A stretch of DNA of 64,000 nucleotides from Bacteroidaceae bacterium (GTDB lineage: Bacteria; Bacteroidota; Bacteroidia; Bacteroidales; Bacteroidaceae). The notes under the pieces are model-generated. The model saw only the letters and a program-made list of their open reading frames with translations. It was not told the origin of the DNA and did not search any database. Shown piece by piece: positions 1-33,788 of the stretch (position 1 is its first letter; the number at the start of each line of letters is the position of its first letter). The DNA is taken from the NCBI GenBank assembly GCA_017483765.1, contig JAFUVE010000060.1, positions 1 to 64,000 on the forward strand, in the 5' to 3' direction. The position numbers and the translations under genes were made by a program.

Positions 1-19
1 ATTTGAAATTTGAAATTTA

Positions 20-84
20 GCCATCCGGATGATTTGGGTGAAAGTGCCATCCGGATGATTTGGGTGAAAGTGCCATCCGGACGG
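20..84. repeat. 26-bp tandem repeat, about 2.5 copies
   Basis: Two identical 26-bp units begin at 20 and 46, each starting GCCATCCGGATGATTTGGG. A partial third begins at 72, and a degenerate fragment of the unit start recurs near 126. No coding potential is evident. A short ATTTGAA heptamer run (1-19) precedes it. Confidence 0.85.
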
Positions 85-93
85 AATGGTATT

Positions 94-121
94 AGTTGAA
101 AGTTTTCAGTTTTCAGTTTTC
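94..121. repeat. Heptamer array (AGTTTTC)
   Basis: AGTTGAA is followed by three exact AGTTTTC units. This is one of about a dozen 7-bp-period arrays in the spacers of this window. Confidence 0.8.
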
Positions 122-137
122 AGTGCCATGCGGACGA

Positions 138-209
138 TATTCACTCAACACTGGGAGCGTTGGTGGGGCTGAGAGAGGCTGATGCCAGCCAGGAACCCCG
201 TGGGGGCGG
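138..209. repeat. Dispersed repeat family 1, copy 1
   Basis: It starts TATTCACTCAACACTGGGAG, has a central GTTGGTGGGG and ends in a CCCGTGGGG-like block. Related copies lie at 4435-4503, 12426-12510, 12517-12590 and 36543-36604. The 68-codon minus-strand frame through it is an artefact of the repeat. Confidence 0.7.
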
Positions 210-227
210 AGGAGCTGCAGTGATATA

Positions 228-269
228 TAAAAAACGACAAGGACATGACGGTTGGTCGTCATGTCCTTG
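228..269 (-). terminator. Rho-independent terminator of the M16 protease operon
   Basis: The 13-bp arms CAAGGACATGACG (238-250) and CGTCATGTCCTTG (257-269) pair perfectly. Read on the minus strand, the hairpin is followed by TCGTTTTTTATA. It lies about 50 bases past the stop codon at 317, so it closes the minus-strand operon that starts near 9.2 kb. Confidence 0.9.
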
Positions 270-316
270 ATGTTGGTTGGTGTGCGTGCAGCCGGTAAAC
301 GGCTTTGCCTGTCTTT

Positions 317-3124
317 TTATTCTGAGAGCATGGTGACTTCGATGCATCGCTTGGCCTGCAGGAATGCCTTTGCCATGTTCTGCACATCCTGTGGCGTCAT
401 CTGCTCCACCATCTTGCAGTAGTCCTTGTCGAAGTCCGTGTCGTCGTCGAGCTCATGCCAGATGATGTACTCCCAGTAGTCGTTGGTGATCTCCATCTGC
501 GCATACTGCTTGATGAGATACTGCTTCACCTTCTGCATGCTGGACTCGAGCGGTCCGTTGTCGGCGATGTGCTTCAGCTGCTGATAGATGATGGGGTTGA
601 GCTCCTCGTATCTGTCGGGATTCGCGTTGTATGAGATTTTGAGCATGGCGTCAGGCGTCTCCTCCTTGTCGAGGTTGAAGCTGACGCTGACCCCGTAGGT
701 CCCGCCTTTCTCTTCTCTCACGCTGTCGGTGTATGCAATCTGGAGTGTGCGCTGCAGGAAGTCGAGAGCGAGGTCGTTCTTAGCAGAGAACGGTATGTCT
801 GCCGTGTAGTAAATGCTGACGTTGGCAAGCGGTGTTGCCATTTTCTTCGTGAACTTATGCACGGACTCGCCTCCTACGATTTTCGCCAGGTTGTCTTTGT
901 TGGCTTTCTCCTGTTTGTGGGTAGCCGGCAGGGAAGCGAGATACTGGCAAACCAGCGTCCTGATCTCGTCGATGTTGACATTACCCGTGATGACCGCCTT
1001 GAAGTTTGACGCGTCTGCAAACCTCTCTTTGTAAATTTGCAGAATACGGTCGTAGTCCGCCTTCTTCACCACCTCCTGCGTGACCGGCTGATGGCGCGGA
1101 TGGTTTCCGTACATGATGCTTGAGATGGAGTCGTTGTAGTCGACCCTTGGTGACGCATTGCGGTTGGTGAGGAATGAGAGTGTGCGGTTCTTGAGTCCTT
1201 CGAACGCCTCGTTGTCCTTCCTTGGCTGAGTGAAGTAGAGGTAAGCCAGCTCGAACATGGTTTTGGTCTCCTTGACGGAGCATGCTCCGCTGATGCTCTG
1301 ACTTGCCCTTCCCACCGACGGAGAAACGCTGACCGACTTGCCTGTGAGCATCTTCCTGAGCGTGGTGGCGTCGAACTCGCCCACACCCCCTTCCGTTGTG
1401 GCGCTGGTGATGAGCGAGAAGTTTGGAATGTCCTCGTCGCCATAGAGCGATGTTCCTCCTTCCGCCTTGATTTGCATGCTGACCTGGTCGGCGTTGAATT
1501 TTGTGGGCTTGACGTAGACCTTCATCCCGTTGCTGAGTACCATCTCCGTGTATCCGTGCTTGAACTCCTTCTCGCTGACGATGGTTCCCGGCTTCGGGAG
1601 TTGTGCAACGAGATTCTCGGCGATTTCCGGCTCGGTGTATGCGCTGTATTGCTGCTGTTGAGCCGCGCAGATGACCTGCTCGATGGTGCTCTCATCGGGG
1701 ATTTTGACGCTCTCCTTGTCGGGCGCGTAGAGCGCCACCACCTGGTTCTTGTCGCTGACGAGCTCGCTTACCGCCTTGTTCACCTCCTCGAGCGTGACAC
1801 TTTGGTCGAGCTGCTTTGCGTTCTGCAGCTCAAACTCCTCAGAGATGAGCGGTTCGCAGGTGAGGAAGTTGCTGACACATTTGTTGACGAAATAAGAGTT
1901 TCTTCTGTCGTTCCGCTCTTTGAACCTTCGTTCAGCCGCGTTCATGAAAATTTTCTTTGCCCTCTGGAGCTCAGATTCCACAAATCCGTGCTGCCTGATC
2001 CGCTCGAGAGCCGCAGTGGCTGCGAAGAGTCCGCCAATGATGTTGTCCTGCTTGCAGCTGACACTGAGCGAGAACGCCTCTTTCGTACGGCTGAGGAAGA
2101 ATGCCCCGTCGTGTCCTGACGCGCTCATGAAGGGTGCGTCAGGCTGCTGCCGGATTTCCGCGAGTCTGCTGTTCGTCATGTAGGCGATGAGGTCGGCGAT
2201 GTATCCGTCGCGCAGATACTGGTAGGAGTTCTTCTGGTCGTCGGGCGTCGGATTGTGCTTCATGTAGAGATGTGCGAGCACGATAGGCTGCTCCTTGTCC
2301 TTCTGGATGGCGACAATCATCTTCTCGTTGTCGTCGACCGGATAGTATATTCTCTCAGCCGGGTTTTGAGGCATGGGGATTTTGGAGAACAGTTTCCTGA
2401 CTTTCTTCTCCACCTTCTTTACGTCGAAGTCACCGACGACGACGATGGCCTGGAGGTCTGGACGATACCATTTCTCGTAGTAGTCCTTGAGGTCCTGGTA
2501 AGGGAAGTTTCTGACGATGTCCATGGATCCGATAGGCATGCAGTCCTCGTATTTTGATCCTTTGTAGACGGTAGGCATCGCGTCCTCCATCATACGTTGC
2601 ATGGCCATCCCCGCTCTTCTGGTTCTCCATTCCTCCTCAATGACCCCCCGCTCCTTGTCGATTTCCTTGTCGTCGAGCAGAATGTAGTGGCTCCAGTCGT
2701 TGAGCACGAGCAGGCAAGAGTCGAGCACTCCCTCTCTGCTGATGGGCGCAGAGCCGATGTGGTAGACCGTCTGGTCTACAGACGTGTAAGCATTGAGGTT
2801 CGCTCCGAATTTCACACCGATGGTCTCACACCACGGCACGATGCCCAGCTGCTTCCCCTTTCCCGGAAAGTGCTTCGTTCCGTTGAATGCCATGTGCTCG
2901 AGGAAGTGCGCGAGTCCCCTTTGTCTGGGCTCCTCGAGGATGGATCCCACCCTCTGTGCGATGTAGAAGTCGGCCAGTCCTTTCTCCTTAGCGTTGTGGC
3001 GGATGTAGTAAGTCAGTCCGTTGTCAAGTTTTCCAGTCACGAATGACGGGTCGGAAGGCAGTTGTGCCGCTGCCGAAACTGGCAGCAGCACAACTGCGAT
3101 AATGTATGCTAATAATTTCCTCAT
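317..3124 (-). CDS. M16 family zinc protease, PqqL/FusC-like (periplasmic)
   Basis: A 935-residue secreted metalloprotease. A signal peptide (about 1-20, ending SAAAQ) precedes the first M16 domain. The inverted zinc motif HFLEH is at 73-77, followed by FNGT, NAYTS and the distal acidic ligand in GVIEEEWR (about 163-165). A second, inactive M16 half fills the C-terminus, giving the four-domain architecture and roughly 930-residue length of PqqL and FusC. Those proteins are periplasmic M16 proteases encoded beside TonB-dependent receptors; FusC cleaves an imported iron protein. Here the gene ends an operon with a TonB receptor and two lipoproteins, 15 bp after the DUF4876 gene. A paralogue of the same length lies at 38622. 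Family assignment is firm; substrate is unknown, and a role in processing cargo taken up by the receptor is inference. Confidence 0.93.
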   Translation of the reverse strand: MRKLLAYIIAVVLLPVSAAAQLPSDPSFVTGKLDNGLTYYIRHNAKEKGLADFYIAQRVGSILEEPRQRGLAHFLEHMAFNGTKHFPGKGKQLGIVPWCETIGVKFGANLNAYTSVDQTVYHIGSAPISREGVLDSCLLVLNDWSHYILLDDKEIDKERGVIEEEWRTRRAGMAMQRMMEDAMPTVYKGSKYEDCMPIGSMDIVRNFPYQDLKDYYEKWYRPDLQAIVVVGDFDVKKVEKKVRKLFSKIPMPQNPAERIYYPVDDNEKMIVAIQKDKEQPIVLAHLYMKHNPTPDDQKNSYQYLRDGYIADLIAYMTNSRLAEIRQQPDAPFMSASGHDGAFFLSRTKEAFSLSVSCKQDNIIGGLFAATAALERIRQHGFVESELQRAKKIFMNAAERRFKERNDRRNSYFVNKCVSNFLTCEPLISEEFELQNAKQLDQSVTLEEVNKAVSELVSDKNQVVALYAPDKESVKIPDESTIEQVICAAQQQQYSAYTEPEIAENLVAQLPKPGTIVSEKEFKHGYTEMVLSNGMKVYVKPTKFNADQVSMQIKAEGGTSLYGDEDIPNFSLITSATTEGGVGEFDATTLRKMLTGKSVSVSPSVGRASQSISGACSVKETKTMFELAYLYFTQPRKDNEAFEGLKNRTLSFLTNRNASPRVDYNDSISSIMYGNHPRHQPVTQEVVKKADYDRILQIYKERFADASNFKAVITGNVNIDEIRTLVCQYLASLPATHKQEKANKDNLAKIVGGESVHKFTKKMATPLANVSIYYTADIPFSAKNDLALDFLQRTLQIAYTDSVREEKGGTYGVSVSFNLDKEETPDAMLKISYNANPDRYEELNPIIYQQLKHIADNGPLESSMQKVKQYLIKQYAQMEITNDYWEYIIWHELDDDTDFDKDYCKMVEQMTPQDVQNMAKAFLQAKRCIEVTMLSE

Positions 3125-3139
3125 GATTCTAAGTTCTTT

Positions 3140-4372
3140 TTATTTCAGGAAAGACGGCACAGCCTCAGCCTCGAAGTCGTTGGCCGAGTCGTTGGTGTCG
3201 ATATACTTACCGTTGGCGTCCGTCTTTCTGATGACCGACTTGTTGTAGCGCGTCTTGTCCTTGTCGATTTTACCGCAGTATGTCCAGCCCTTGTCGATAG
3301 AGGCGTCGAGCACGTTCCACTGCCAGTCGGACTCAACGCTGAGGTTCACTCCGTCGAGAATCCAGCTGTTCGGTACTTTGAATGTGTCCTTTGTCTGGTC
3401 GAATGTGTACTCCATGAAAGTCCAAGTATATGCAGCCGTGTATGCGTAGTTCTGTAGCCAGTTCTCCTTTGTCTCGTGCATTCGTGCGATGGCATATGAG
3501 TGGAATCCACGGTTGTGGAATCCAAACACGGTTGCTGTGTAGCAGTACCATTTGTCGAGGTTTTGTGCGCTTCCGTCCGGGTCAGTGAAGTTGGGGTTGG
3601 AGGACTCGTCATAGAATTCGAAGTCAGCATTGCTGAGGTCGAAGGAGTTGGCGTTGGCTTCCTTGTGGTTGACGGCATTGATGGCGAGAACGAGCTGTTT
3701 TCCCGGCTCCACCGCCACGCTCTTTCCGTTGCCCGGAATCATATATACTGCGTCCACAGAGAACGCCTCGCTCATGATGTCCGGGTCGTATTCCTGTTTG
3801 TCGATAGTGAGGAACTCAGACTCCAGCACAGCGATGCTGTCGGCATAGAGTGTGACGTCGCTGTTGTTGGTGATGACCATGTACTGGTCATTTCCGTACT
3901 GCTCTCCCTCCGGGGTGGTGGTTCCGGTGAAGAAAATCTCGCTGATGACGAATCCACCCTTCGCGGTGAACGATGAGACGCTGACTTTCACGTTGGGGTT
4001 CTGTCTGCTGATGCTGACCCCGTCGCTCTTGACGTCGAAGTCCTTCTGTCCAGCCACTCCGCCGAGTACGAAGTCAAGATGTCCGTTGGCGCTGACGTTG
4101 TACGTACCCTCCTCCACGTCGTTGAGCAGGATTGAGAAGTCGTTCCCGTTCTGCGTGAACTGTTCGCCAGTGAAGGTGTATGCCTTGTTGGTCTTCACGT
4201 TTGTGATGGTGGCGTTGAGATTAGAAAGCACCACCTGCTCGAGGTTCATCGGTGTCTCGATGGTGAGCGTGGAATCCTTGACTGTAGGCACACTGTCGTC
4301 GTCGGAGCAGGCTACGAAGGAGACTGCGATTGCGAGCATGGCAATCATGCTGATAAAAAAGTTCTTTTTCAT
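3140..4372 (-). CDS. DUF4876 surface lipoprotein
   Basis: A 410-residue lipoprotein. The signal peptide ends with the lipobox FVAC (Cys22), followed by SDDD, which resembles the acidic lipoprotein export signal of Bacteroidota and suggests display on the outer face of the outer membrane. An N-terminal beta-rich domain (about 33-135) resembles the whole of the small lipoprotein at 6103-6486. After it comes the DUF4876 body with FVISEIFFTGTTTPEG and a long segment describing features such as GNDQYMVITNNS, similar in style to lamin-tail-like beta folds. Function is not established for the family. It sits between an outer-membrane barrel and an M16 protease in one transcription unit, so a cargo-capture role with the TonB receptor is plausible. 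Confidence 0.85.
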   Translation of the reverse strand: MKKNFFISMIAMLAIAVSFVACSDDDSVPTVKDSTLTIETPMNLEQVVLSNLNATITNVKTNKAYTFTGEQFTQNGNDFSILLNDVEEGTYNVSANGHLDFVLGGVAGQKDFDVKSDGVSISRQNPNVKVSVSSFTAKGGFVISEIFFTGTTTPEGEQYGNDQYMVITNNSDVTLYADSIAVLESEFLTIDKQEYDPDIMSEAFSVDAVYMIPGNGKSVAVEPGKQLVLAINAVNHKEANANSFDLSNADFEFYDESSNPNFTDPDGSAQNLDKWYCYTATVFGFHNRGFHSYAIARMHETKENWLQNYAYTAAYTWTFMEYTFDQTKDTFKVPNSWILDGVNLSVESDWQWNVLDASIDKGWTYCGKIDKDKTRYNKSVIRKTDANGKYIDTNDSANDFEAEAVPSFLK

Positions 4373-4434
4373 TTTCTTTTTGATTTTAAATTTTAAATGG
4401 TTTTATATATTAGGTTTTTTTCAGAATTTTCATG

Positions 4435-4503
4435 TATTCACTCAACACCGGAGACGTTGCTGGGTAGTTATGGCGGGGGTGCCAGCCTGGGACGCCGTGG
4501 GGC
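4435..4503. repeat. Dispersed repeat family 1, copy 2
   Basis: TATTCACTCAACACCGGAG, then GACGTTGCTGGG, then GTGCCAGCCTGGGACGCC and GTGGGGCG. It fills most of the 145-bp spacer between the DUF6850 and DUF4876 genes of an otherwise tight operon. Confidence 0.75.
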
Positions 4504-4517
4504 GTTTTCTCCTTTTT

Positions 4518-6008
4518 TCAGAACGCCGCTCCGAGTGATATGTTCAGCAGGAACCTGCTGGCGTGGGCTGCCGAGATGTCAGTCGCTGCGTTCAGCTCGG
4601 CGAAAACCGCATATTTTGGGTTTTTGAGCTTATGGTCTGCCCTGATGCCCGCTCCAAAGCTTGTGATGCCCGCCTTCGTGAAATCATATTTGTGGTTGAC
4701 GTAATCCGTGATGGGAATAGACAGATCCGCAAACGGCATGTCGATTTTTTTGTCGATGTTGGCATAAAAAGCCGCCTGGGCATCAATTCTCAGCGTTGTG
4801 GCCTTGCCCGGCTGTAAGAATATCTGTCCCTTAGCCAATGCGAAGAGATGAGCCGCGCTGAGTTCCCTTTTTGGATAGGCATATTGCTCTTCCTGGCTGA
4901 CATATCCCAAGTTGAGCTGCGTGTTCCACGTCTTCCGTCCGTAGATCGCTCCGGCATGCAAGTCCGTGAACCGGCTCTTGTACATGGTGAGCTTGCCGAT
5001 GGTGGGGTAGGAGTTCACCTCCGACTTACCTCCAATCCTCTCGTCTCCGCTCCGTCTGGTGTGTTCCGCATGTAGGAAAAGAGCCGTCCTGCTGTTGGCG
5101 CTGCGTTTCCATCCGACGTTGGCTGCGATATGTTCGTCGTAGATGTCGGTGAGCGGCATGGAGTTGTAGTCAGCCAGCACCCGGTGGTAGCGTCGTTGCC
5201 GGAGCAGGATGTCGGCATAGAGTCCGTTCCCGGAAACCGGCAAGGCGCTTGCCGCGATGCTGAGTCCGCCGCCGTTGAAGTAGAGCCTTCGTTTGTCGCC
5301 CGAGAATCGTGCATAGTACGTGCCGAGTCCCGTCATCTGGTATTCGGTGCTGACTCCGAGCTCGTTGTAGAAATCCACGTTGTTTGTCTGCTTGTAGATG
5401 TTCCCCTCGAGCGATAACCCCAGCTTGTGTCTTGCGATTTCCCTGGCAGCACCAGCCCTCATCGTGAGGTCTGTGGTGATACCTCTCATTCTCGGGTCGC
5501 GGTCCCTGTATTCGTGTTCTGCGCTGAAGAGCAGTTCCGCTCCGAGAGCGAATTTGTTCAGTTCTGTGGCGTATGCCCCAGCGAAATAGTATCCCTCTTT
5601 CTTGGTGTCTCCCCCGATGGTGTCGGCCAGGATATACGGCTTGAGCTTCTCGTAGTCAGACGTGGAGTTCCATTTGATGTTTCTGACCGTTCCGTTCATG
5701 TATGCCGCGCTTCCCCAGACCGAGGTGCGTTCAGACAGTCTGAGGAACGTGTTGACTTCGAGGGAAGGCAGGGTGTGTCCGTCGCCAAGCTCCGGGGTGA
5801 ACGGCTTAGACTCATTGCGTTGGCTGAGCGAGACGCTGATTTCCGTTCTTGATTGCCGGAATGCGTCTTTGTGAATGGCGGGGTTGATCCATGCCGCCTG
5901 CTCGGTGGCCCGCCATAATGAAGAACGCTCCACTACGGCGCTGTCTGGCTCCTGTGCCTGTGCGGTGACAGTTGACAGGATAATCAGTAATATTATGATG
6001 CGTGACAT
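4518..6008 (-). CDS. DUF6850-type outer-membrane beta-barrel protein
   Basis: A 496-residue protein predicted to form an outer-membrane barrel. The start chosen is at 6008 (MSRIIILLIILS, signal peptide ending AQAQ). The frame stays open to 6071, but the extra 21 codons read through a dispersed repeat (6037-6054) and would bury the signal peptide. Alternating aromatic/polar strands run through the protein and it ends in a phenylalanine (LGAAF), as barrel proteins do. The family is found beside DUF4876 and TonB receptors in Bacteroidota; its function is unknown. It could be an accessory pore or receptor for the cargo handled by this operon. Family assignment is from recalled sequence character, so moderate. 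Confidence 0.78.
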   Translation of the reverse strand: MSRIIILLIILSTVTAQAQEPDSAVVERSSLWRATEQAAWINPAIHKDAFRQSRTEISVSLSQRNESKPFTPELGDGHTLPSLEVNTFLRLSERTSVWGSAAYMNGTVRNIKWNSTSDYEKLKPYILADTIGGDTKKEGYYFAGAYATELNKFALGAELLFSAEHEYRDRDPRMRGITTDLTMRAGAAREIARHKLGLSLEGNIYKQTNNVDFYNELGVSTEYQMTGLGTYYARFSGDKRRLYFNGGGLSIAASALPVSGNGLYADILLRQRRYHRVLADYNSMPLTDIYDEHIAANVGWKRSANSRTALFLHAEHTRRSGDERIGGKSEVNSYPTIGKLTMYKSRFTDLHAGAIYGRKTWNTQLNLGYVSQEEQYAYPKRELSAAHLFALAKGQIFLQPGKATTLRIDAQAAFYANIDKKIDMPFADLSIPITDYVNHKYDFTKAGITSFGAGIRADHKLKNPKYAVFAELNAATDISAAHASRFLLNISLGAAF

Positions 6009-6036
6009 TTCTTTTATTAGAGACATATATAAAAGG

Positions 6037-6054
6037 CGGACATACATAAAGTAA
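6037..6054. repeat. Dispersed repeat family 2, copy A (short)
   Basis: CGGACATACATAAAGTAA is identical to 54917-54934. Another copy of the same family, sharing a different part, lies at 55745-55773. This copy is just upstream of the DUF6850 start codon. Confidence 0.75.
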
Positions 6055-6102
6055 GTCCCTACGGTTGTCATTCTATATCAGACGGGGTGGTTTCATTTGC
6101 TG

Positions 6103-6486
6103 TTAATCGAGCAGTATGGCTTTGAGAGTGATGAGATTCTGGCTTTTGTCCATGATTTCAGCGTAGTCGGTCTGTGCCCTGAACTGGTGCATGACGACGC
6201 TTCCGCTATTGTCGTGATAGCTGAACACCCCTTCTATGCTGATGAGGTAAGGACCTCTGAGGAGCTCCACGGTGACAGTATTTCCGTTGAAATCAGCCGT
6301 AGTGGTGACTTTTCGTGAGTTGATGTTGGTGAAGACAGCCTGTGCCTGCACCCGTTCTATGTTTTCAGCCACATCGGTGGTAATAGCCAGCGTGGCGAAT
6401 GCGAAGATATCGTCCTCCTCTTTATGGCATGCTGACAGCATGCACATGATGGCTGCCATCAAAGCGGCAGAGCTTATAACTTTCAT
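6103..6486 (-). CDS. Small lipoprotein resembling the DUF4876 N-terminal domain
   Basis: A 127-residue lipoprotein with signal peptide and lipobox LSAC (Cys20), followed by HKEEDD, an acidic export-type stretch. The mature part aligns by eye with the first domain of the DUF4876 protein at 3140: LAITT with LTIET, AVFTNINSRK with ATITNVKTNK, and LLRGPYLISIEG with VEEGTYNVSANG. It is therefore probably a single immunoglobulin-like beta domain on a lipid anchor. The gene overlaps the end of the TonB receptor gene by 4 bp, implying translational coupling. Function unknown; it may be a small extracellular partner of the receptor. Confidence 0.85.
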   Translation of the reverse strand: MKVISSAALMAAIMCMLSACHKEEDDIFAFATLAITTDVAENIERVQAQAVFTNINSRKVTTTADFNGNTVTVELLRGPYLISIEGVFSYHDNSGSVVMHQFRAQTDYAEIMDKSQNLITLKAILLD

Positions 6487-9203
6487 AATTTCACATTGAG
6501 TTCAAGACCGAAATATGGGGTCACATGCCTTCTGATGGTTGCCCCGTTGCTTTTATAACTGGGATTGGCGTCGATGAGCTTGTTGCAGAACAGCGCCACG
6601 TTGAGTCTGTCGTTGAGCAGCTTCTTCGTCACCTTGAGGTTGATGTTCATGGAAAACGGCACCTTGTGCTTCTCGTACATAGACTCCGTGTTGTTTCTGA
6701 CAAGCCATCTGAGGTAAGCATCGTTCTCGTATTCCGGTTGCCAGTCGTGGATTGATCCGTCGGGCGCGATGTAGCGTGACGGGTAGTTGCTGACCGGTTT
6801 CCGTTGTGATGTGGTGAACCAAAGGCACTGAGCCGAGACCGAGAATCCGAGCCTGAGTTTCGGCACGTCGGTGTCTGCGGTGAAGTTGGTGTTGAACATC
6901 TCCCTGACCGACCCGTCATCGTCGTCGTAAAGTCCGACGTACTGAATTTGCTTTCCGTCGATGACCTGGCTGGGTCGGTATGTCTCCTGGATGGAGTTGT
7001 TGTATGTCGTCCGGAAATAGGCACCGTTGATGGTGAGCCTTGTGAGAATGACGGGGAACCTAACGGTCTCAATGGTGTACTCGATTCCTTGCTTGAGGGT
7101 GAGGCTTCCGTTGGTGTAGTTGCTGTATCCCATCAGTTCGTCCTCTTCGCTGAACGGCAGCAATTCGAGTTGCGGCTGCGTTGTGAGCGTTGCAGGGTCG
7201 ATGCCCGACGTGTCGTATTTCCGGTAGTGATAGCTTTCGTAGTACCCCTGGCTTCTGAATCCGGAGTTCATCTTTTCTCTGAACCACGTGACAGATATCC
7301 TGTTGCCTCCGATGTTGATGTCGGCGGAAACTTCCGCCTTCTTGTTTCTTGCCGGCTGAAGCTCCGTGTTTCTCGGGTCGCGTATGTAAGTCATGAGGTT
7401 GATACGCCTGAAGTCCGGGTTTTCGTGATAGTAGTTGAGCTGCACGAGGTCGATATAGAGCTTGTCGGGGAACAGCTGCTCCATGGTCGGCATCTTGGTG
7501 TGCTGTCCGAACCCCGCTGAAACTCTGAAAAATGCCGTCTTCCCGAACAGGTCGAATTTCGGGAATGTGTATCCGATGTTGGCTCTGAGGTCGGCATAGA
7601 ATTTTCCGTGCATTCTGTACTGCTCAGGCAAGTTGAGCATCTCGGTAGCCCTGATTCCCGCCACGAGGTCGATGGTTCCGGCAGACGTCTGCCATTTGAG
7701 CGTCTCCTCTGCGTAGAAGGAAATGCGCCGGTTGGCAGGAATGTCAGACAGCTTCCTTTGTCTTGTTGCGATTCCGGTGTAGATGGGCCTTGTGGGGTCG
7801 AATACCTGTCCTTTACCGAAGTTCTTGTCGACGTTCCAGTCCGCTCCGACAAGCAGTGAGTTGTGCAGAATGGTGGATGGCACCTGGAACGTAGCGTTGG
7901 CTTTGAGGAATGCGTTGAAAGGCTTTCCGTCCACCTCGTGGTGACCCGTATATTTATAAGGCAGAATATATGCGTCGTTGACCCCCTCCTCCCTTGACAG
8001 CGGTGCCACCGTGAGTCTTGACAGCTGTACGAATCTGGTCCGCTCGATGAGGTCGTGGTCGTATGCCAGTGCCACAGTCGCGTTCATGGACTTGAATAAG
8101 CTTCTGCTGTTTTTCGTCTTGTGGCTGAACGACGATGACAAAGCGAATCTGTTGTATGATGACTTGTAGCTGTCCTCTGTGTTGTTGTTGATGTCGGGGT
8201 CCTGCTTGTCGTTGTCGAATGATCCCGTGTAGTCCAGGTTCGTGGAAAGCGAGATGATGTTGTGGGTTTTTTCCCATTGCTTGTTGAGCCGGGTTGATAT
8301 GGTCAGTCGTTTGTAGTTTTCGAGCCTGTTGCGCGGGTCAGCCTTGGCGTTGAGGTAGTCAGCGCTGATGTTGAGACTGAGTTTTCTCTCTTTCCACTCG
8401 AATCCTTTAGCCGCATAGAACAGCTTGGAACTCATGTCTGCCTTGACACGTGCCTGAATGTCGTTTCCCCCCTTTCTTCTTTCGATTTTGACGAGTCCGC
8501 TGGTGAGGTCACCGTATTCGACGGACGGTATGCCCCTGACGATTTCCACTTTCTCAATGTCGTCGGTTGATATGGTCCTCATGTCGACTCCGTAGTTCGT
8601 GAAGTCCCTGCTTGTGGCCTGCGTGTCCCATGCGCCGCTGAGATATTGCATGTTTGCGTTCGTGCTGACAGGTGCTCCGTCGATGATGAAGCTCGTGCCG
8701 AGTGATGAGGTGGCGTAATTGGCACTACCTGTGGAAATCTCTCTGATGGCGATTACGTTAGGTGCGCTGAAAGACGGGTCGTGGCTTCTTCCTCCCGGCA
8801 GCAGCTCGAGCAAGTCGGCAAAGCTTGATGGCTGTAGATGCTCCATCGCATGCTTTTTGATGACAGATGATGTGGTCAGCCCTTGAGACTCCTGTGCGGT
8901 GACGACCACCTCTCCCAGTTTTTTGATTTCGGTTTGGAGCAGATACGTGTCGTTTGCCGTTCTTTGCGATGTGAGTGTCTTATATCCTAAATATGCGATT
9001 TTGATGCTCTTACATTCTTTTTTTAGTGTGAATCTTCCTTCGAAGTCCGTCACCGCCACGTTTTTTCCTCCTTCGATGTCGAAGATGACCGCTCCAATCA
9101 CCGGCTCTTTGGTCTCCCCGTCGAGCACAATGCCTTGTGCAATGTTCTGTGCGTTGGCGTAAGTCGCAGATAATAAAAGTAATAACAAAATTTTGAATCG
9201 CAT
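6483..9203 (-). CDS. TonB-dependent outer-membrane receptor
   Basis: A 906-residue receptor. A signal peptide (ending ANAQ, about 19) is followed by a carboxypeptidase-regulatory-like beta-sandwich (about 22-95, GIVLDGETKEPVIGA). A TonB-box-like stretch LGEVVVTAQ and a plug domain follow (about 110-240, with VEIVRGIPSVEYGDLTSGLV), then a 22-strand-type barrel to the C-terminus. No SusD partner is adjacent, and the length is below that of SusC, so this is not a Sus-type glycan importer. It is the first gene of a five-gene minus-strand operon ending in an M16 protease. The ligand is not evident; iron- or protein-derived cargo is suggested only by analogy with FusA-FusC and YddB-PqqL. Confidence 0.93.
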   Translation of the reverse strand: MRFKILLLLLLSATYANAQNIAQGIVLDGETKEPVIGAVIFDIEGGKNVAVTDFEGRFTLKKECKSIKIAYLGYKTLTSQRTANDTYLLQTEIKKLGEVVVTAQESQGLTTSSVIKKHAMEHLQPSSFADLLELLPGGRSHDPSFSAPNVIAIREISTGSANYATSSLGTSFIIDGAPVSTNANMQYLSGAWDTQATSRDFTNYGVDMRTISTDDIEKVEIVRGIPSVEYGDLTSGLVKIERRKGGNDIQARVKADMSSKLFYAAKGFEWKERKLSLNISADYLNAKADPRNRLENYKRLTISTRLNKQWEKTHNIISLSTNLDYTGSFDNDKQDPDINNNTEDSYKSSYNRFALSSSFSHKTKNSRSLFKSMNATVALAYDHDLIERTRFVQLSRLTVAPLSREEGVNDAYILPYKYTGHHEVDGKPFNAFLKANATFQVPSTILHNSLLVGADWNVDKNFGKGQVFDPTRPIYTGIATRQRKLSDIPANRRISFYAEETLKWQTSAGTIDLVAGIRATEMLNLPEQYRMHGKFYADLRANIGYTFPKFDLFGKTAFFRVSAGFGQHTKMPTMEQLFPDKLYIDLVQLNYYHENPDFRRINLMTYIRDPRNTELQPARNKKAEVSADINIGGNRISVTWFREKMNSGFRSQGYYESYHYRKYDTSGIDPATLTTQPQLELLPFSEEDELMGYSNYTNGSLTLKQGIEYTIETVRFPVILTRLTINGAYFRTTYNNSIQETYRPSQVIDGKQIQYVGLYDDDDGSVREMFNTNFTADTDVPKLRLGFSVSAQCLWFTTSQRKPVSNYPSRYIAPDGSIHDWQPEYENDAYLRWLVRNNTESMYEKHKVPFSMNINLKVTKKLLNDRLNVALFCNKLIDANPSYKSNGATIRRHVTPYFGLELNVKL

Positions 9204-9227
9204 CCTAACTAACTTAATTTTCAGGAT

Positions 9228-9260
9228 GCAAAGTTAGAGCAAAAATTAATGTTTGTCAAT
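9228..9260 (-). promoter_or_regulatory. Probable promoter of the TonB receptor operon
   Basis: On the minus strand a -7 box TAACTTTGC lies at 9228-9236, with ATTG (9257-9260) 20 bp upstream in place of TTTG. It is 25 bp ahead of the receptor start codon. No Fur-like or other clear operator was recognised. Confidence 0.6.
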
Positions 9261-9335
9261 ACCCAAAATTGAGTAAATTTATGCAATGAAATGTGATGTG
9301 TGGATGAAAATAACCAAAAGGCGCTGATTCAACGT

Positions 9336-9372
9336 AATATGCCTGTTGGATTTGACTTCCAACAGGCATATT
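9336..9372. terminator. Perfect 15-bp inverted repeat after the 9443 protease gene
   Basis: AATATGCCTGTTGGA (9336-9350) pairs perfectly with TCCAACAGGCATATT (9358-9372) around a 7-base loop. It sits 70 bp past the stop of the minus-strand M16 gene. There is no strong T-run, so it may be a stabilising 3' hairpin as well as a terminator. Confidence 0.65.
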
Positions 9373-9442
9373 GATAACTTCAGTTAATTATGAAAATGCG
9401 GATTGTTGACATCCACTAAACTGTCCGATAGGTTGGGTATGT

Positions 9443-12370
9443 TTAGTATCCGAAAATCTGCTCGAGTGTCAGAATGTTGACTTTTCCAATGCTGTTGAGG
9501 CGTTCCATGTCGAGGTCTTCGATGTTGCCGAGTATGATGTACTTGTACTTTCGGTCTTTGACATTAGTCTGCTGGAAGTTCTCGAGTCCGCGTAGTGTCA
9601 GCCTGCTTGCATCTCTGTAGATGTCCTCGTTGATGTCGTGGTCGAGCCCGAGTTTCTTAGCCTGGAACACGTAGTTGAGTAGTCCCGGTCCGACATAGCG
9701 TTCTGACTCGATCGTCTTCTTGAGGTTTTTCTTAGAGAGCGTGAATGCCTTGTCGGACATGGGCATGTTCTCGATGATGTCGTGGAAAACGTCGATGCAG
9801 TTGTCCATCTTGTCGTTCTGTGTGATGATGAAAGTGCGGAACGCATGCGGCTCTGTCTTCCTGTCCGGGATGGTGTAGATGGCGTTTGCCTGGTATGCCA
9901 GTCCCCGGCTTTCCCTGAGCTCCTGGAAGACGATGGTGTTCATCCCGCCTCCGAAGTATTCGTTGAAGAGTTTGATTTTCGGCACGAGTGTTGGGTCGTA
10001 AGTCTGTCCGTTGCAGGAGAACATAGCCATGTTGATAGCCTTTGAGTCGTAGTTAGCGATGAACACCTCGTTCTCTTCCACGGACAGCATCTTGAAGTGA
10101 TTGTCGGCCTTGGGCGGTATCGGGTTCTTTGAGGTCTTGTGTATGTTCTCCACGTGTTCCGCAATTTGATGAAGCGTCGACGGCCCATAGTAGAGTATGA
10201 TTTGCTTGTAGTCTGCCAGTTGCTTGACTTTGTTGACCATTTCTTGTGGGTTCATGCTTCTGAGCTCCTCCGCCGTCGGGATGTTGGTGTAGATGTTCTG
10301 CGGCCCGTAAACAGCGTATTGGTAGAGCCTGCTGTAGCATGCAGACTGGTCGGCTTTGTTGATTTCCCTGGACTTGATAGCGTCTTCTACGAAGGCGTCG
10401 TACACTTTCTGGTCGGGCTTGGCGTTTCTCACCCAATCCTCGAAGAGCTGCATGGCCTTAGCCTGGTTTTCGGCCAGTCCGCTGATGGAGATGTACGTCT
10501 GGTCCTCGTTGACCCTGATCCTGATGTTGCACGCCAGTGCGTAGAGCTGCTCCTGGATCTTGTCGTTCGTCAGTTTTTTCGTTCCGAGATAGTTGAAATA
10601 GTCGGTGGCATATGGCAGGAACTTGTCGGCCTTGCTTCCATGCTCGACGACATAAGTGAGACTGAAAATTCCGTTTTTCTCGTTCTTCCTGTACATGACG
10701 CTGTTTCCCTTCTTGAGCCTGTATGACTTGACGTCGTTTTCGAAGTCCACAAATTCAGGTAGAATCGGTTCCACGTTGTTGTGGAGGATAGAGTCCACGA
10801 ATGCCGTCTGCTTGTCGCGGTTCATCTCGATTGGCGAAATGGCCGGCTTGTCGATTTTCTTCTCGTTTGGGTCTGTCCCCTGCCGTTTGTACACGCATAC
10901 GTAGTTGTGGTCGGAGAGGTACTTGCGTGCGAAGTCGATGACCTCCTGTCGTTTCATCTTCTTGATTTTCTCGATTTTGTTGACCTCGTCATCCCATGTC
11001 CTCTCGTTGATGAACGCGTCAGCCATTCTGAGTGCGCTCGAGTTGTTGTCCTCCATCTCCCTCATCTCTTCGAGCTTCATGTTGTTGACGATGGCATCGA
11101 GCTTCTCCTGGCTGAACTCTCCTCTGAGCAGTTTTGCCACTTCGTCGAGCATGAGTTGCTTGGCCTCGTCGAGCGTCTGTCCCTGCTTAGGGTATGCAAG
11201 TGCGAGCATTGACGTGTAGTCGCTCATGTCGTCGAGAAATATGGACGAGGAGAGCACTTTCTGCTGCTGGTTGATGTTGATGTCGAAGAATCCGGCTTTC
11301 CCGTTGAACAGCAGTTTCTGAATGACCTCAGCATATTCGCAGTCCTTCTCCTTCATTCCCGGGAACCTCCATCCGACGACCACGAGCTCGCTCTCCTGTC
11401 CGAACACCTCCTTCTGCTGTATGCCCTTCAGCGGCTGCTCCTTGACATATTGTAAAGGCTGTACTCCCTCAGATGGTTTCCAGTCGCCGAAATGCTTGCT
11501 GATGATGTCCATGACATCGTCGGGCGACAGGTTTCCGCACATACAAATGGCCACATTGTTTGGCACGTAGTATTTCTGGAAGTAGTTCTTGATGTTGGTG
11601 ATGGACGGATTTTTGAGATGGTCCTGCGTTCCGATGACGGTCTGTTTTCCGTATGGGTGGTTGGGGTAGAGCATCTGGTTTGTCGCCTCGAGCACTTTCC
11701 TTATGTCCTGTGTGAGGCTTCTGTTGTATTCCTCGTAGACCGCCTCGAGCTCAGTGTGGAATCCTCTGACCACCATGTCCTTGAACCTGTTGGCCTGTAC
11801 AGCAGCCCAGTTGTCGATCTCGTTAGCCGGGATGTTCTCGACGTAGACCGTCTCGTCCTCGCTTGTGAATGCGTTGCTGCCTGTGGATCCGATTGCCGCC
11901 ATGAGCTTGTCGTATTCGTTTGCCACGGCGATTTTTGACGCCTCGTAGGATATGGAGTCAATGACATGGTAGATTTCCTTCCGTTTTAGGGGGTCGGTTG
12001 TGACGCGGTAGGTTTCGTATAGCTGCTCAATCTGGTCGAGCATAGGCTTTTCGGCCATGTAGTCCGTAGTTCCGAACTGTGATGTACCCTTGAACATGAT
12101 GTGCTCGAGGTAGTGTGCCAGCCCGGTGGTCTCCGCCGGGTCGTTCTTTCCTCCAGTCTTTACGGCGATGGCCGTCTGGATTCGTGGCTGGTCGTTGTTG
12201 ACCATGAGATAGACACGGAGTCCGTTGTCGAGCGTACACATCTTGACATGGCGCGGGTCTCCCTTGACGGTCTGGTAGTGATACCTGTCAGGCGAGAAGG
12301 GAATGGAGTCGTTCTGCGCGCAGATATTGATGGCAATTGCCCAGATGAGGGCGAGGATGGATTTTTTCAT
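9443..12370 (-). CDS. M16 family zinc protease (secreted, 975 aa)
   Basis: A 975-residue secreted M16 metalloprotease. The signal peptide ends ICAQ (about 19). HYLEH (86-90) is the zinc and catalytic motif, with FKGT after it, NAFTSEDETVY further on, and the distal glutamate in the ELEAVYEEYN region. A long inactive second half follows. It differs from the PqqL-like pair at 317 and 38622: it has a helical insert after the zinc motif (PLKRKEIYHVIDS) and a divergent C-terminal half, so it belongs to another M16 subgroup common in Bacteroidales. It may be transcribed from the DUF4954 or hflX side, since no promoter is visible in the repeat-filled spacer upstream. Substrate unknown, presumably periplasmic peptides. 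Confidence 0.92.
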   Translation of the reverse strand: MKKSILALIWAIAINICAQNDSIPFSPDRYHYQTVKGDPRHVKMCTLDNGLRVYLMVNNDQPRIQTAIAVKTGGKNDPAETTGLAHYLEHIMFKGTSQFGTTDYMAEKPMLDQIEQLYETYRVTTDPLKRKEIYHVIDSISYEASKIAVANEYDKLMAAIGSTGSNAFTSEDETVYVENIPANEIDNWAAVQANRFKDMVVRGFHTELEAVYEEYNRSLTQDIRKVLEATNQMLYPNHPYGKQTVIGTQDHLKNPSITNIKNYFQKYYVPNNVAICMCGNLSPDDVMDIISKHFGDWKPSEGVQPLQYVKEQPLKGIQQKEVFGQESELVVVGWRFPGMKEKDCEYAEVIQKLLFNGKAGFFDININQQQKVLSSSIFLDDMSDYTSMLALAYPKQGQTLDEAKQLMLDEVAKLLRGEFSQEKLDAIVNNMKLEEMREMEDNNSSALRMADAFINERTWDDEVNKIEKIKKMKRQEVIDFARKYLSDHNYVCVYKRQGTDPNEKKIDKPAISPIEMNRDKQTAFVDSILHNNVEPILPEFVDFENDVKSYRLKKGNSVMYRKNEKNGIFSLTYVVEHGSKADKFLPYATDYFNYLGTKKLTNDKIQEQLYALACNIRIRVNEDQTYISISGLAENQAKAMQLFEDWVRNAKPDQKVYDAFVEDAIKSREINKADQSACYSRLYQYAVYGPQNIYTNIPTAEELRSMNPQEMVNKVKQLADYKQIILYYGPSTLHQIAEHVENIHKTSKNPIPPKADNHFKMLSVEENEVFIANYDSKAINMAMFSCNGQTYDPTLVPKIKLFNEYFGGGMNTIVFQELRESRGLAYQANAIYTIPDRKTEPHAFRTFIITQNDKMDNCIDVFHDIIENMPMSDKAFTLSKKNLKKTIESERYVGPGLLNYVFQAKKLGLDHDINEDIYRDASRLTLRGLENFQQTNVKDRKYKYIILGNIEDLDMERLNSIGKVNILTLEQIFGY

Positions 12371-18047: not shown

Positions 18048-18257
18048 ATGAAAAGAAGTCTTTATGTGTTGGCTGTTGCTCTTTTGTGCTGCGGTCAGAG
18101 CGTGAAAGCCCAGAACGGTTATGACGACACCAAACATGAGGTGGCAGTCAGCTACGGACTGTATTCCAACTCCCAAATCATAGACCTTTATAGTGTTTAT
18201 AGTATATTTTTTTTGATTTTCAATAACATCCAACTACCGATTTTATGGAAAACTTAA
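18048..18257 (+). pseudogene. Truncated outer-membrane protein, 5' fragment (69 codons)
   Basis: The frame encodes a convincing signal peptide (MKRSLYVLAVALLCC... ending VKAQ) and then NGYDDTKHEVAVSYGLYSNS, which looks like the first strands of a Bacteroidales outer-membrane barrel protein. After about codon 46 the sequence turns into low-complexity hydrophobic residues and stops, overlapping the start of the giant gene by 13 bp. No continuation of the barrel was found nearby. It is most likely the 5' remnant of a gene interrupted by rearrangement. A short translated leader peptide that couples to the downstream gene is the alternative. Confidence 0.55.
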
Positions 18258-21200
18258 CGTTGAATGAAATGAGCAAGAGAAGACATCTGTTCAAATCACG
18301 GTGGCTTCCGGTTTCTTTGCTGGCACTGCTGCTTTCATTTTCATGGTTGTCAGCCGTGGAAGCAAGCGCACAGACATCGGCGGAAGAACTTTTGGAAACC
18401 ACCGGCAACTACACCGTGAGCCTGTTCGGACAGACCACGGTGAAACTAAAGATGCCGATCTATGGCAAAAAAAGCACTGACCACTGGATTTCCCATGCCG
18501 AGGTTTATGTTTATGATGTGAAAAACACGTCGTACAAGCCTTTACTGCTGAAAGTCCAGATTACGAAAAACGACGACATCTCCGACGGTGCTTCCAAGGT
18601 GAACTATGGTTTCACAAGCGATGTTCCTGGCTTGGTGGAGCTGATAGATTACACAGGTGGCAACCTGGCTATTTCCTCGACGAAGAAAACTCATGACATT
18701 CCGTTCAACGGGACGGACGACTCGTGGGCAGAGTTCGAGTGGGAAGTTCCGCTTCAGTTTTTGGGCAAGGAGCTCCAGTTCGATTTCTCTGTGACGCTTT
18801 CGAATACGAACAGCCATAACTATAAGAGTCTGAGTGTGCCGTCGAAGAAGATCAAGGTGCCGGAGAAAGCTGATGTGATGTATCCGATGCTGACCCAGGC
18901 TGTGATTTCGTCAGAGGAGAGATATGTGGGCGAAATTCAGGTTCCCTGGATGATTGCAGTGGCCGACACGTCGGTCACCATGGCTGTTTATGGCTATAAG
19001 GACGAGGCTGGCAAATGGCAGCAGAAGGAGCTGAACAAGGCCGCGTCGGGCATGATACGCCTGAACGCCACAGAGAACTACGACTCGCTGTACGTGGAGG
19101 TCAACTACATCCAGTGGCGCACGAAGAATGGGAAAGGCATAAAAGAGGAGCTGAAAAATCTCAGGAGCGACTACTACAATGTTCCAATGCTCCATGAGCC
19201 TCAAGAACTGACCGCAACGATTAAGGACGATAAGAAGGCGACGGTGGAACTGACTTGGAAGATAGGCGACGTGGGTCATGAGGACCTGATTGACCCCGAC
19301 ATTTTCCAAATCCAGCGCTCAATCTCCGGGAGTATTGATGATTTTGTGGATATAGGAACAGCCGTGTTCGATGCGGACTCGGCATCCTACTATTTCGAGG
19401 ACAACACCCTGCTTTCCTCGATAAAGGAGAGCGATTTCATAGCAGACGGAAGGGTGAATCCCGTTTACCGTGTTCGTCGTGGTACCTCTGCTTTCTGGGG
19501 TTGGGATAACAACCCGCTATCTGTAACCGCAACATTGAATTCTCCCGACCTGTGGCTGATTTCTGTTGACAAAGCCACCGGAGTGTTGTCAGACGCAGAG
19601 AAACATGTGCTGGACGTGAGCTGGGAATACAGGGAAAGTAACGCACAGAACTATTTTGTCTGGAACGACAACGCCGAGATGAGCTTATTGGTCAGAATGT
19701 ATCGCAGCGACAATACCATGGTTGACAGCACCCTGTATGTGCTGAGTGAAGATGAGATTCTGAAGTGTTCCAAACGTATAGTCCTGCCCCGTTCCTGCGT
19801 AAACTATGAGGTGGTGATCAAGACAGATCAGAAGTCCTCTGTAATCGGCAATTACACGAAAAAAATCCATAAGATTGGCTCAGTAGCTGACTGGCAGGAA
19901 TTTGTCCACATCGTTGACACAGGCTATGACTCTTATGCCGAGGGTTGCTTGACGGCTGACATCGAGCTGGATTATGATTCTAAGAATATCATAGACACCC
20001 GGTATTTCATGGGTGTGCTCGACGGCGACGGACACAGCATCACATTGAAAGGTTTCCAGAAACCTCTGATAGGCTCATCGAACAATGCCGTCATCAAGAA
20101 CCTGATCATAAAGGGAACGCTTTCTCCCAACAACAAAAATTATACCTCAGGATTTGTAGGGTCGGCATACAGCACCACATTTATCAACTGCCAGATGGAT
20201 GCCGAGTTTACTAAATCAAACTCGCCTGTTGCCTGGGGCGGTTTCGTCGGTGTTGTCAATTACGGTGGCTTCATGACTTTCCGTAATTGTCTTTACACCG
20301 GCAGTCTTCCAGAGGATCTTGTCAGCAGTGGGATGCATGGAAATTTTGCAGGATTCATGGGACATACTCCGGCAAATGAATCTGTTCTATTCACGTTGGC
20401 AAACTGCGTATTCGCACCTAAGACACCATACGTGGGTGAAGGTACATTCCTGCCTAATGGCACCGGTAAGGCAACAATCGTGAGTCTCTGCAGCACTTGC
20501 TATGTCGTGCCAAAGGAAGGCGACAAGAACGCATACCGTGACTATATGAACGTTTTGCCGGAGGACAACCAGGCTCGCTTTGGCGTTCTTGGTGGACAGT
20601 GGGAGCAGACCACCGAATGGCCTTATATCAAACCGGCCAACTCAAACAAATCTATGCCTCAAGGGACATCTGAATTCCTGGTTCAGGTGCCAAACCTCTA
20701 TTTTAATCCGTCAGGCGCAGTTAAAAAGAACTCCCTGGAGGCCACCACCCGCCAGAGCAGCGTGATGCTGACCTGGGAGGTCGAGGGCGGTGCCGTTGAC
20801 TATTTCCAGGTTTTCAGACGCGTGAGAGGCAGTGATGCCGAATGGGACTTGATTGCCCCTGCAGTAGGCGAGCTGGGTTATGAGGATACCGACGTGTCTC
20901 CAATCGTATTGTATGAATATAAGGTGCGTTCAGCCATTGACTGTGAGGGAATGCATTACACCGAAACCGAGGTTGTCAACGGAGAGTGTGAGCACACAGG
21001 AAAACTGGAGGGCTATGTGCGTTATCCCGACGGAACGGGACTGTCGGGCATTACTGTATGGGTGACCGCCAACGGAGAGGAATACGAGCTTCACACCGAC
21101 GATAAAGGTCATTATGAGCGCGACGGGCTGTCATATTTCGGACAGAACACGATTACCTACGCCGTGACACCGGAAGGTGTGGAGCTGGAAGAGGGATTCA

Positions 21201-28429: not shown

Positions 28430-28446
28430 AACTTGTTTTATGGAAT

Positions 28447-28470
28447 GGAGACGCTCCGTGTAGCGTCTCC
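28447..28470 (+). terminator. Intergenic hairpin after the giant gene
   Basis: GGAGACGCT (28447-28455) pairs with AGCGTCTCC (28462-28470) over a 6-base loop. There is no T-run, only an A-run downstream. It lies in the 74-bp gap before the next gene and may attenuate or protect the transcript. Confidence 0.6.
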
Positions 28471-28503
28471 GTCCAATTACAAAAAAAGAAAAACCATAAT
28501 CAG

Positions 28504-29340: not shown

Positions 29341-29360
29341 AACTTCTCAGCCCTTTGGGG

Positions 29361-29380
29361 CGTTCCGCTATAGTGGAATG
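29361..29380 (+). terminator. Intergenic hairpin
   Basis: CGTTCCGCTA (29361-29370) faces TAGTGGAATG (29371-29380), pairing in RNA with two G-U wobbles. It lies between the lipoprotein and fimbrillin genes and has no T-run. Confidence 0.4.
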
Positions 29381-29426
29381 CTCATGCTATGGCAAATATT
29401 GAATAAACATCATTTACTTATACGCA

Positions 29427-32261: not shown

Positions 32262-32266
32262 GTTTG

Positions 32267-32308
32267 TTGAGAGTTTAGAGTTGAGAGTTTAGAGTTGAGA
32301 GTTTAGAG
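32267..32308. repeat. Heptamer array (TTGAGAG/TTTAGAG)
   Basis: Six 7-bp units alternate TTGAGAG and TTTAGAG just upstream of the DHHW start codon. Confidence 0.8.
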
Positions 32309-32336
32309 GGAAGTATGTGCGGAAAGACTGGAGAAC

Positions 32337-32388
32337 CTGGATATACCGGAAAGTCTGGATATACCGGAAAGTCTGGATATACCGGAGA
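32337..32388. repeat. 9/18-bp tandem array (CTGGATATACCGGAAAGT)
   Basis: Nearly three copies of an 18-bp unit, itself two 9-mers of the form NNNCYGGAN. It occupies the spacer between the two DHHW genes. Confidence 0.85.
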
Positions 32389-32408
32389 GATTGCCCCATG
32401 GAAAAAAG

Positions 32409-33677: not shown

Positions 33678-33690
33678 TTTTCTTTTTTTT

Positions 33691-33742
33691 AGATGAGCTG
33701 GATGGACTAGATGTTCTAGATATTCTAGATGGACTAGATGCC
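33691..33742. repeat. 9-bp tandem array (NNNCTAGAT)
   Basis: Successive 9-mers GGACTAGAT, GTTCTAGAT, ATTCTAGAT and GGACTAGAT lie between the MBOAT stop and the DHHW start. Confidence 0.8.
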
Positions 33743-33788
33743 ATCGATGTTTATTGGGGGTAGCTCTATTTTGAAATTATATAAATCA

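Follow-up and report, generated by a model that had tools for sequence, protein, structure and literature searches.

The closest described relatives of the locus reported here are the Fus system of Pectobacterium and the YddB-PqqL system of Escherichia coli, in both of which a TonB receptor gene adjoins an M16 peptidase gene of the PqqL/FusC type and expression depends on iron, according to the passages of PMC6793856 that deal with them. In E. coli K-12 pqqL and yddB are adjacent, and the ABC transporter gene yddA is also seen there. A similar pairing occurs at positions 317–9203 of a 64,000-nucleotide stretch of DNA from a Bacteroidaceae bacterium (assembly GCA_017483765.1, contig JAFUVE010000060.1, positions 1 to 64,000; hereafter the window), where five minus-strand genes encode, in order of transcription from 9203 to 317, a TonB-dependent receptor, a small lipoprotein, a DUF6850 protein, a DUF4876 lipoprotein and an M16 metallopeptidase. 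The interpretation favored here, with modest confidence, is that these genes form an iron-starvation operon for a TonB-driven importer with its own periplasmic protease that would free iron.

The operon departs from the Fus and YddB-PqqL systems in several respects. Its receptor is not of the FusA/YddB family: the best BLASTP comparison with YddB gives an E value of 0.21 (no detectable similarity), and the PDB matches at E 0.001 cover no more than the N-terminal portions of SusC-like and other TonB receptors, with neither FusA nor YddB among them. No ABC transporter gene is present among the five, unlike the E. coli yddA cluster; DUF4876, its small relative and DUF6850 are additional components, seen here only in Bacteroidota; and the M16 protein comes from a Bacteroidales family with stand-alone copies. 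The way of working may be like that of Fus and YddB-PqqL, yet the locus is not filed as a member of these systems because its receptor is not of the YddB kind and it has no ABC transporter gene. An earlier annotation made from the letters of the window (the sequence-only reading) had drawn the analogy to TonB receptor-linked proteases; this stands for the M16 homology and the gene linkage and does not extend to the receptor.

DUF4876 lipoproteins encoded beside TonB receptors are also described at PG1019-22, BT1933-39 and BT3625-33 in the part of PMC10434189 covering such loci, which lists Prevotella intermedia PIN17_RS07775-90 among them and whose Fig. 1 legend compares PG1019-21, BT1938-9 and PIN17_RS07775-90. 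The same part reports that without iron PG1019-22 rises 20.8–214.5-fold and BT3625-33 about 37–128-fold, as do, in P. intermedia OMA14, PIOMA14_I_0804-08 (a TonB system with five tags; 5.2–33.2-fold) and PIOMA14_I_1877-79 ('TonB-dep. receptor, peptidase, 50S protein'; 9.4–72.4-fold). BT3625-33 is unlike the five-gene operon in carrying ABC transporter, PepSY and DUF4857 genes. Either of the two OMA14 loci could be the operon's counterpart, and PIOMA14_I_0804-08 is preferred because of its gene number and because Prevotella falsenii (L179) and P. aurantiaca (L176) carry all five genes, the M16 of P. falsenii lying in two frames. The Hmu haem uptake system is alike in being a low-iron TonB system with a haemophore-like lipoprotein, and Hmu genes co-vary with DUF4876 genes in the sections of print available: in those of PMC10470040 a Porphyromonas gingivalis DUF4876 gene responds to haemin with a change of the same sign as hmuY (log2 -5.42). 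It is unlike the operon in that a HmuY match is found by Pfam in none of the five proteins. PG1019 tops a table, in the section of PMC5807917 that presents it, of P. gingivalis genes raised in periodontitis. Flavobacterium BfpR/HfpR was considered as a relative and set aside, as the relevant passages of PMC9331221 mention none of these partner genes and the words 'DUF' and 'lipoprotein' are absent from its text. Literature searches returned no paper linking an M16 peptidase to DUF4876-TonB loci; the one paper found on M16 with TonB in Prevotella concerns a P. gingivalis mobile element.

Organization of the five-gene operon

The receptor (6483–9203; 906 amino acids, aa) contains a CarboxypepD_reg-like domain (CarbopepD_reg_2) and a Plug domain, and is followed by the small lipoprotein (6103–6486; 127 aa, no Pfam match), the DUF6850 protein (4518–6071; 517 aa, PF21012, E 5e-97), the DUF4876 lipoprotein (3140–4372; 410 aa, PF16215, E 3.2e-62) and the M16 peptidase (317–3124; 935 aa, Peptidase_M16 and M16_C, with a signal peptide recognizable by eye). 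The intergenic spacings in this order are -4, 31, 145 and 15 bp; the true start codon of the DUF6850 gene may lie downstream of 6071. All five open reading frames are thus where the sequence-only reading had placed them, and Pfam families are assigned to four of the five products. A Pfam search detected a SusD domain in none of the five, so there is no SusD-like lipoprotein next to the receptor.

The two lipoproteins are related. Profile-profile comparison matches the small lipoprotein to positions 4–126 of DUF4876 (probability 98.7, E 1.8e-16), which makes it a free-standing relative of the DUF4876 N-terminal domain. Both have an acidic stretch after the lipobox cysteine (Cys22 then SDDDS in DUF4876, Cys20 then HKEEDD in the small lipoprotein), a feature that directs lipoproteins to the cell surface in Bacteroidota, and at least two acidic residues at +3 to +8 recur in 35/37 small lipoproteins and 39/41 DUF4876 frames of window-type operons. 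Both are accordingly predicted to be exposed at the cell surface. The DUF4876 profile scores 210 bits with a curated cut-off of 27.9, and a solved homologue exists (PDB 4q1z, 'Putative lipoprotein', E 3.7e-93). The DUF6850 profile scores 326 bits with a cut-off of 27; the PDB search made returned no solved homologue, a literature search no paper, and a search of viral contigs no relatives. An aromatic C-terminal residue preceded by strand-like alternation is a feature of outer-membrane barrels, and among 152 DUF6850 frames (same-genome duplicates included) 132 have an aromatic final residue and 131 have the alternation before it, suggesting that DUF6850 is a probable outer-membrane beta-barrel.

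The M16 peptidase is of the PqqL/FusC type, as previously proposed. It matches PqqL (6ofs; 267 bits, 4e-78, residues 20–923) and FusC (6b03; 105 bits, 3.5e-29, residues 16–932) over its full length, whereas the pitrilysin match is partial (52 bits, residues 31–271 only). The catalytic residues are intact, with HFLEH at residue 73 and a distal GVIEEEW whose last glutamate is taken, from the family motif, to be a zinc ligand; HF[LM]EH and this glutamate are kept in all 46 aligned M16 proteins. The closest solved relative is PDB 9ldy ('Peptidase, M16 family', 724 bits), an entry code for which a literature search found no paper. A second PqqL-type M16 protein, 935 aa long and sharing 40% identity with the operon copy, is encoded at 38622–41429 on the plus strand; it is nearer to 9ldy (808 bits) and to FusC than the operon copy and, being unlinked and likewise PqqL/FusC-like over its full length, indicates that this feature is not specific to the operon. 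A spacing between the catalytic motifs that is four residues longer was tried as a mark of operon M16 proteins and rejected, as it also occurs in unlinked L231, L236 and L237.

The operon is bounded by signals close to those proposed in the sequence-only reading. The promoter, placed there at 9228–9260, corresponds to an element at 9229–9268 upstream of the receptor gene (TTTTGGGTATTG-N20-TAACTTTG), which is conserved in relatives and fits the Bacteroidota promoter type TAnnTTTG; a sigma-70 scan did not return it. Downstream of the M16 gene, where a terminator had been placed at 228–269, a 13-pair hairpin with a T-rich tail (TCGTTTTTTA) lies at 238–269 on the minus strand and has one of the two longest stems in the terminator scan. 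As classes, neither kind of signal is in excess within positions 1–12000 (12 terminator-like sites vs 13.5 in shuffles, and 6 promoter-like sites vs 7.3).

Linkage of the M16 gene to the importer genes

The order was sampled by an even draw of 295 genomes, 47 of which have DUF6850 above cut-off. All 59 DUF6850 places scoring 77 bits or more outside the window were fetched; two fragment matches (~29 bits) were left out, and L091, a weak place in the window's own genome, was excluded from the counts because it has no DUF6850 by profile. The trio of receptor, DUF4876 and DUF6850 is complete in 57 of the 59 loci, an association beyond chance. The exceptions are L067, which is cut by the contig end, and L084, which is without the partner genes; the receptor is split over two frames in L044 and runs off the contig in L071.

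Close to the window, the M16 gene is part of the same set. A scan of named genomes with DUF4876 kept the best 80 of at least 509 relatives (at least 594 pattern matches). The M16 gene is present in all of the first 30, and all five genes in 29, the thirtieth (L160) being cut by its contig end just before DUF4876. Identity to the window's DUF4876 is 58–66% in 25 of these and 43–47% in the other five; the record titles name Prevotella, Segatella, Xylanibacter and Hoylesella, with many metagenome-assembled genomes from the rumen. The M16 gene occurs in 43 of the best 80 loci, a number that is no survey figure since the loci were picked by likeness to the window. A census of 201 genomes of the family gave 65 DUF6850 places of at least 118 bits (three weaker ones above cut-off were left out), and by a hand count at least 16 of the 65, window included, have an M16 gene on the same strand within 6 kb. 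Among the matches listed, 14 of 15 M16 proteins scoring above 950 bits (window included) are encoded beside DUF6850; the exception is G334, also in the family.

Phylogeny of the M16 protease

In a joint tree of operon and unlinked M16 proteins (quick search, LG+G4, no bootstrap) the window's protein falls in a 30-row clade with full support (SH-like approximate likelihood ratio test, SH-aLRT, 100), 29 rows of which lie in operons with the importer; two pairs of rows in this clade are the same genome twice. A first tree had suggested that the window's M16 was a mere resident member of the family, but once operon relatives were added it fell among the operon proteins. On a receptor tree of 103 rows, 39 of them with M16, presence of the protease requires 11 changes vs 31.4 in shuffles. 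The M16 proteins of L222, L225, L226, L234 and L235 nest among those of the Prevotella type, and those of their receptors that were tested (L222, L225 and L226) belong to a far branch of the receptor tree; the protease has therefore changed receptors while staying with the importer.

The operon proteases are, by these trees, of more than one origin. A single clade of operon M16 proteins is rejected by approximately unbiased (AU) tests (p 0.0064 with five rows, 0.0092 with fourteen), and L053, L072, L078 and L080 form a separate second group, although long branches (L072, L078, L080) weaken both the placement of this far group and the AU tests. Muribaculaceae-type and Prevotella-type operon proteins form one clade in one tree (SH-aLRT 99) and are parted in two others, so at least two origins are claimed and not three. 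This absence of a single clade fits the suggestion made earlier that the locus is an independent version of protease-associated import.

A promoter element shared with other genes

The recurring element upstream of the receptor gene consists of TTTTTAGGTATTG, ~20 bases and TAnnTTTG. In a relaxed form (GTATT, 13–22 bases, TAnnTTT), searched between 300 bases before the called frame and 200 bases inside it, it is found in 35 of the 38 window-type operons, window included, and in 13 of 19 other M16-bearing operons, with no hit in the reversed controls (0/38 and 0). Close loci without M16 have it in 5 of 25 cases (reversed control 3) and distant loci in 7 of 48 (reversed control 5); a few genomes appear twice among these groups, and the four far M16 operons are counted with the distant loci. 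An inverted repeat (AGGTA...TACCT) inside the element was considered as part of it and rejected, as it is not kept in all operons.

The strict element occurs at 44 sites in 11 of 13 genomes searched (reversed control, none). Thirty of these sites were read, six of which stand at the five-gene operon and 24 elsewhere. These 24 precede TonB receptor genes (6), flavodoxin genes (3, in three genomes), TetR genes (2, in one genome), genes for an LCM methyltransferase, a DeoC-type aldolase and a leucine-rich repeat protein, four genes without a Pfam match, and six short or absent frames. In iron-starved P. intermedia, flavodoxin, TetR and TonB genes are among the most induced, flavodoxin by 159–164-fold, in the expression data seen in PMC10434189. 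The TTTTNRGTATTG-N20-TAnnTTTG element thus likely marks a low-iron regulon in Prevotella-group genomes (L239-L267) that includes flavodoxin, TetR, TonB receptors and the DeoC-type aldolase. Induction of the five-gene operon itself by iron shortage is supported by analogy with the homologous loci in print, and the operon is probably switched on in this way.

Other proteases and genes beside the importer

The importer loci contain 206 unannotated operon genes of 150 aa or longer, and 80 of these were scanned, hand-picked to be mostly the longer ones with one per ABC cluster. The 80 include 23 ABC ATPases, 12 HEAT-repeat proteins, 7 Fer4_5 proteins and 5 S46 peptidases; 80 flanking genes outside the operons, an unmatched and hence weak control, include 2 ABC ATPases, 3 S9 peptidases and at most one S46 peptidase. 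Single importer loci also carry a met-zincin domain, a C69 peptidase, ChaN, or a papain-like protein with a HmuY-like stretch; at L045 a HmuY-like stretch, below its cut-off, lies in a protein encoded beside the importer.

In the HEAT proteins two motifs, HxHG and DAC-x-NG, are invariant (10/10 aligned sequences) and are similar to the catalytic pair found in gingipain-type (clan CD) cysteine peptidases. Pfam C25 matched one tested protein below cut-off, and a PDB search matched the HEAT part alone. These proteins may represent an undescribed family of gingipain-like cysteine peptidases tied to the importer. Secreted-looking HEAT proteins of ~730 aa are encoded downstream of DUF6850 in L032, L033, L034, L035, L036, L044, L045, L060 and L064.

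Further genes accompany the importer in individual loci. In L080 (10411–17817) the genes that come after those of the importer encode a ChaN-type haem-binding protein, a half-size M16 pair and a full-length PqqL-type M16 protein. Secreted-looking proteins of ~580–593 aa are encoded between DUF6850 and M16 in L221 (8911–12648), L229 (9434–11176) and L230 (5701–7443), and proteins that resemble them by eye are encoded after DUF6850 in L038 and L070.

Proposed function and alternative explanations

Under the iron-starvation interpretation, iron shortage would switch on the five genes, and DUF4876 and its small relative would capture cargo at the cell surface. The TonB receptor would move this cargo, or part of it, across the outer membrane, assisted by DUF6850 as an accessory outer-membrane barrel, and the periplasmic M16 protease would close around the imported protein or peptide and cut it, most likely freeing iron or an iron-bearing cofactor. 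Release of iron had been offered as an example in the sequence-only reading; the published regulation of homologues and the shared promoter element speak for it, and what the cargo would be and whether proteolysis would be the iron-releasing step are put forward here as conditionally as they were there.

Several observations weigh against this interpretation. A full-length PqqL-type M16 gene stands close behind the importer in 4 of the 59 order-wide loci, adjoining DUF6850 in L053, L072 and L078 and four genes further on in L080; in the other 55 none is close, and the importer must therefore work without M16 there (in L070 another PqqL-type M16 gene starts ~8 kb downstream in the same gene run, at the edge of the fetched stretch). 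Many importer loci have an ABC transporter and DUF4857 instead of M16. PqqL-type M16 proteins are in turn a general Bacteroidales family, present at E 1e-60 or better in 194 of the 295 genomes, and 40 stretches fetched around high-scoring M16 matches of the order contain neither DUF4876 nor DUF6850. In the order at large, then, the importer is mostly without M16 and M16 mostly without the importer; the proteases that stand apart from it may have a broader peptide-clearing job. Nearer to the window, L168, L169 and L213 are of similar likeness and have no M16, and within the window's genus DUF6850 is above cut-off in 2 of 13 genomes (56–89% complete, the window's 70%), one of which has the M16 operon; the other, G420, has neither DUF4876 nor M16 within 15 kb of DUF6850. 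The promoter element is found in none of the four far M16 operons (L053, L072, L078, L080). It occurs once in the window's own 70% complete assembly, at the operon, and no flavodoxin gene was found there, so the regulon reading rests on relatives. The iron data come from homologous loci, and 'M16', 'PqqL' and 'insulinase' are absent from the text of PMC10434189.

The linkage is nevertheless real but patchy. The order-wide draw alone would have favored weak linkage; a conserved association of M16 with the other genes holds in a large group of relatives and is rare across the order and in the incomplete genomes of the window's genus. The neighborhood survey and M16 comparison proposed with that reading yielded neither an absence of linkage nor an M16 protein placed away from PqqL/FusC. 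Its argument from M16 length and motifs to import fared less well: as PqqL-type proteases are widespread and often unlinked, these features alone do not imply import. That a resident M16 gene merely happens to stand behind the other four genes in some lineages, with no shared function, would account for the breadth of the family and for the many loci and genus genomes without the pairing. This explanation is disfavored and considered very unlikely, given that 14 of the 15 best family M16 matches listed are beside DUF6850, vs none of the 40 order-wide stretches with either importer family, and given the multiple M16 origins, the retention of M16 in operons whose receptors were swapped, and the shared promoter.

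The most serious rival, although we think it rather unlikely, is an importer of haem or iron chelates in which no protein crosses the membrane: surface lipoproteins would remove haem or chelated iron from proteins of the host or of plants, and the M16 protease would merely clear peptides that slip through or degrade peptide carriers in the periplasm. It draws on the joint changes of P. gingivalis DUF4876 and Hmu genes in several data sets, as far as the published excerpts go, on the ChaN protein of L080 and the HmuY-like stretch of L045 beside related importers, and on the majority of importer loci that do without M16. An M16 clade that tracks the importer over receptor lineages, together with other proteases at the importer, would be odd for such a passenger. 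That same variety of proteases (M16, S46 dipeptidyl peptidases, C25-like proteins and a met-zincin) is what would be expected if the importer served nutrition and not iron, taking up oligopeptides or small proteins from which the proteases yield amino acids, and many secretory peptidases are reported for Prevotella genomes in the portion of PMC9045265 seen. The promoter element common to flavodoxin and TetR genes and the strong iron regulation of homologues, in the published portions cited above, stand against nutrition, which is judged improbable. The flavodoxin response also bears on acquisition of zinc or another metal, whereby the operon would be zinc-responsive and M16, whose family consists of zinc peptidases, would be no more than one of the regulon's zinc enzymes; an element that precedes genes so strongly induced by low iron in P. 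intermedia leaves this suggestion with little probability.

The iron-starvation interpretation can be extended, as a tentative possibility, to a modular iron-piracy platform in Bacteroidota in which one receptor-DUF4876-DUF6850 importer would be combined with varied plugged-in proteases for different iron proteins. The proteases would comprise the PqqL-type M16, recruited at least twice, gingipain-like HEAT cysteine peptidases, S46 dipeptidyl peptidases and met-zincins. Many of the window's closest relatives are from rumen Prevotella, for which plant iron proteins such as ferredoxin could be the cargo.

Features flanking the operon

Directly upstream of the operon and on the same strand lies a gene for a different two-domain M16 peptidase (9443–12370; 975 aa). 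Neither this gene nor the paralogue at 38622–41429 figures in the sequence-only reading. A 15-bp perfect inverted repeat at 9336–9372, between this gene and the operon promoter, is a possible transcription boundary; it is not followed by a T-run and may be a terminator. The upstream gene was considered as a member of the operon and rejected, as no M16 of that kind is among the genes listed for the 80 loci picked with DUF4876 and the inverted repeat intervenes. M16 genes of such other kinds are seen near the importer in L042, L044, L060, L064, L065 and L076.

Elsewhere in the window, short direct repeats of the types gccatccggatgatttgggtgaaagt and ttttcagttttcag occupy the contig end (1–130). 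A single open frame of 3394 aa at 18245–28429, transcribed on the plus strand, encodes a secreted-looking giant protein upstream of two lipoprotein-like genes (28426–30494). The minus-strand region 30906–36180 resembles, by eye, an alginate-type O-acetylation cluster with two AlgJ/X-like genes, an MBOAT-like gene and an SGNH hydrolase-like gene.

Implications

A few Proteobacteria are known to pirate iron by taking in whole proteins and digesting them. If the same strategy arose separately in Prevotella and its relatives, which inhabit the human gut, the mouth and the rumen, the DUF4876 and DUF6850 families, which are strongly iron-regulated, would gain a function within a testable system. The promoter element would in addition provide a marker for reading the low-iron regulon of Prevotella-group bacteria.

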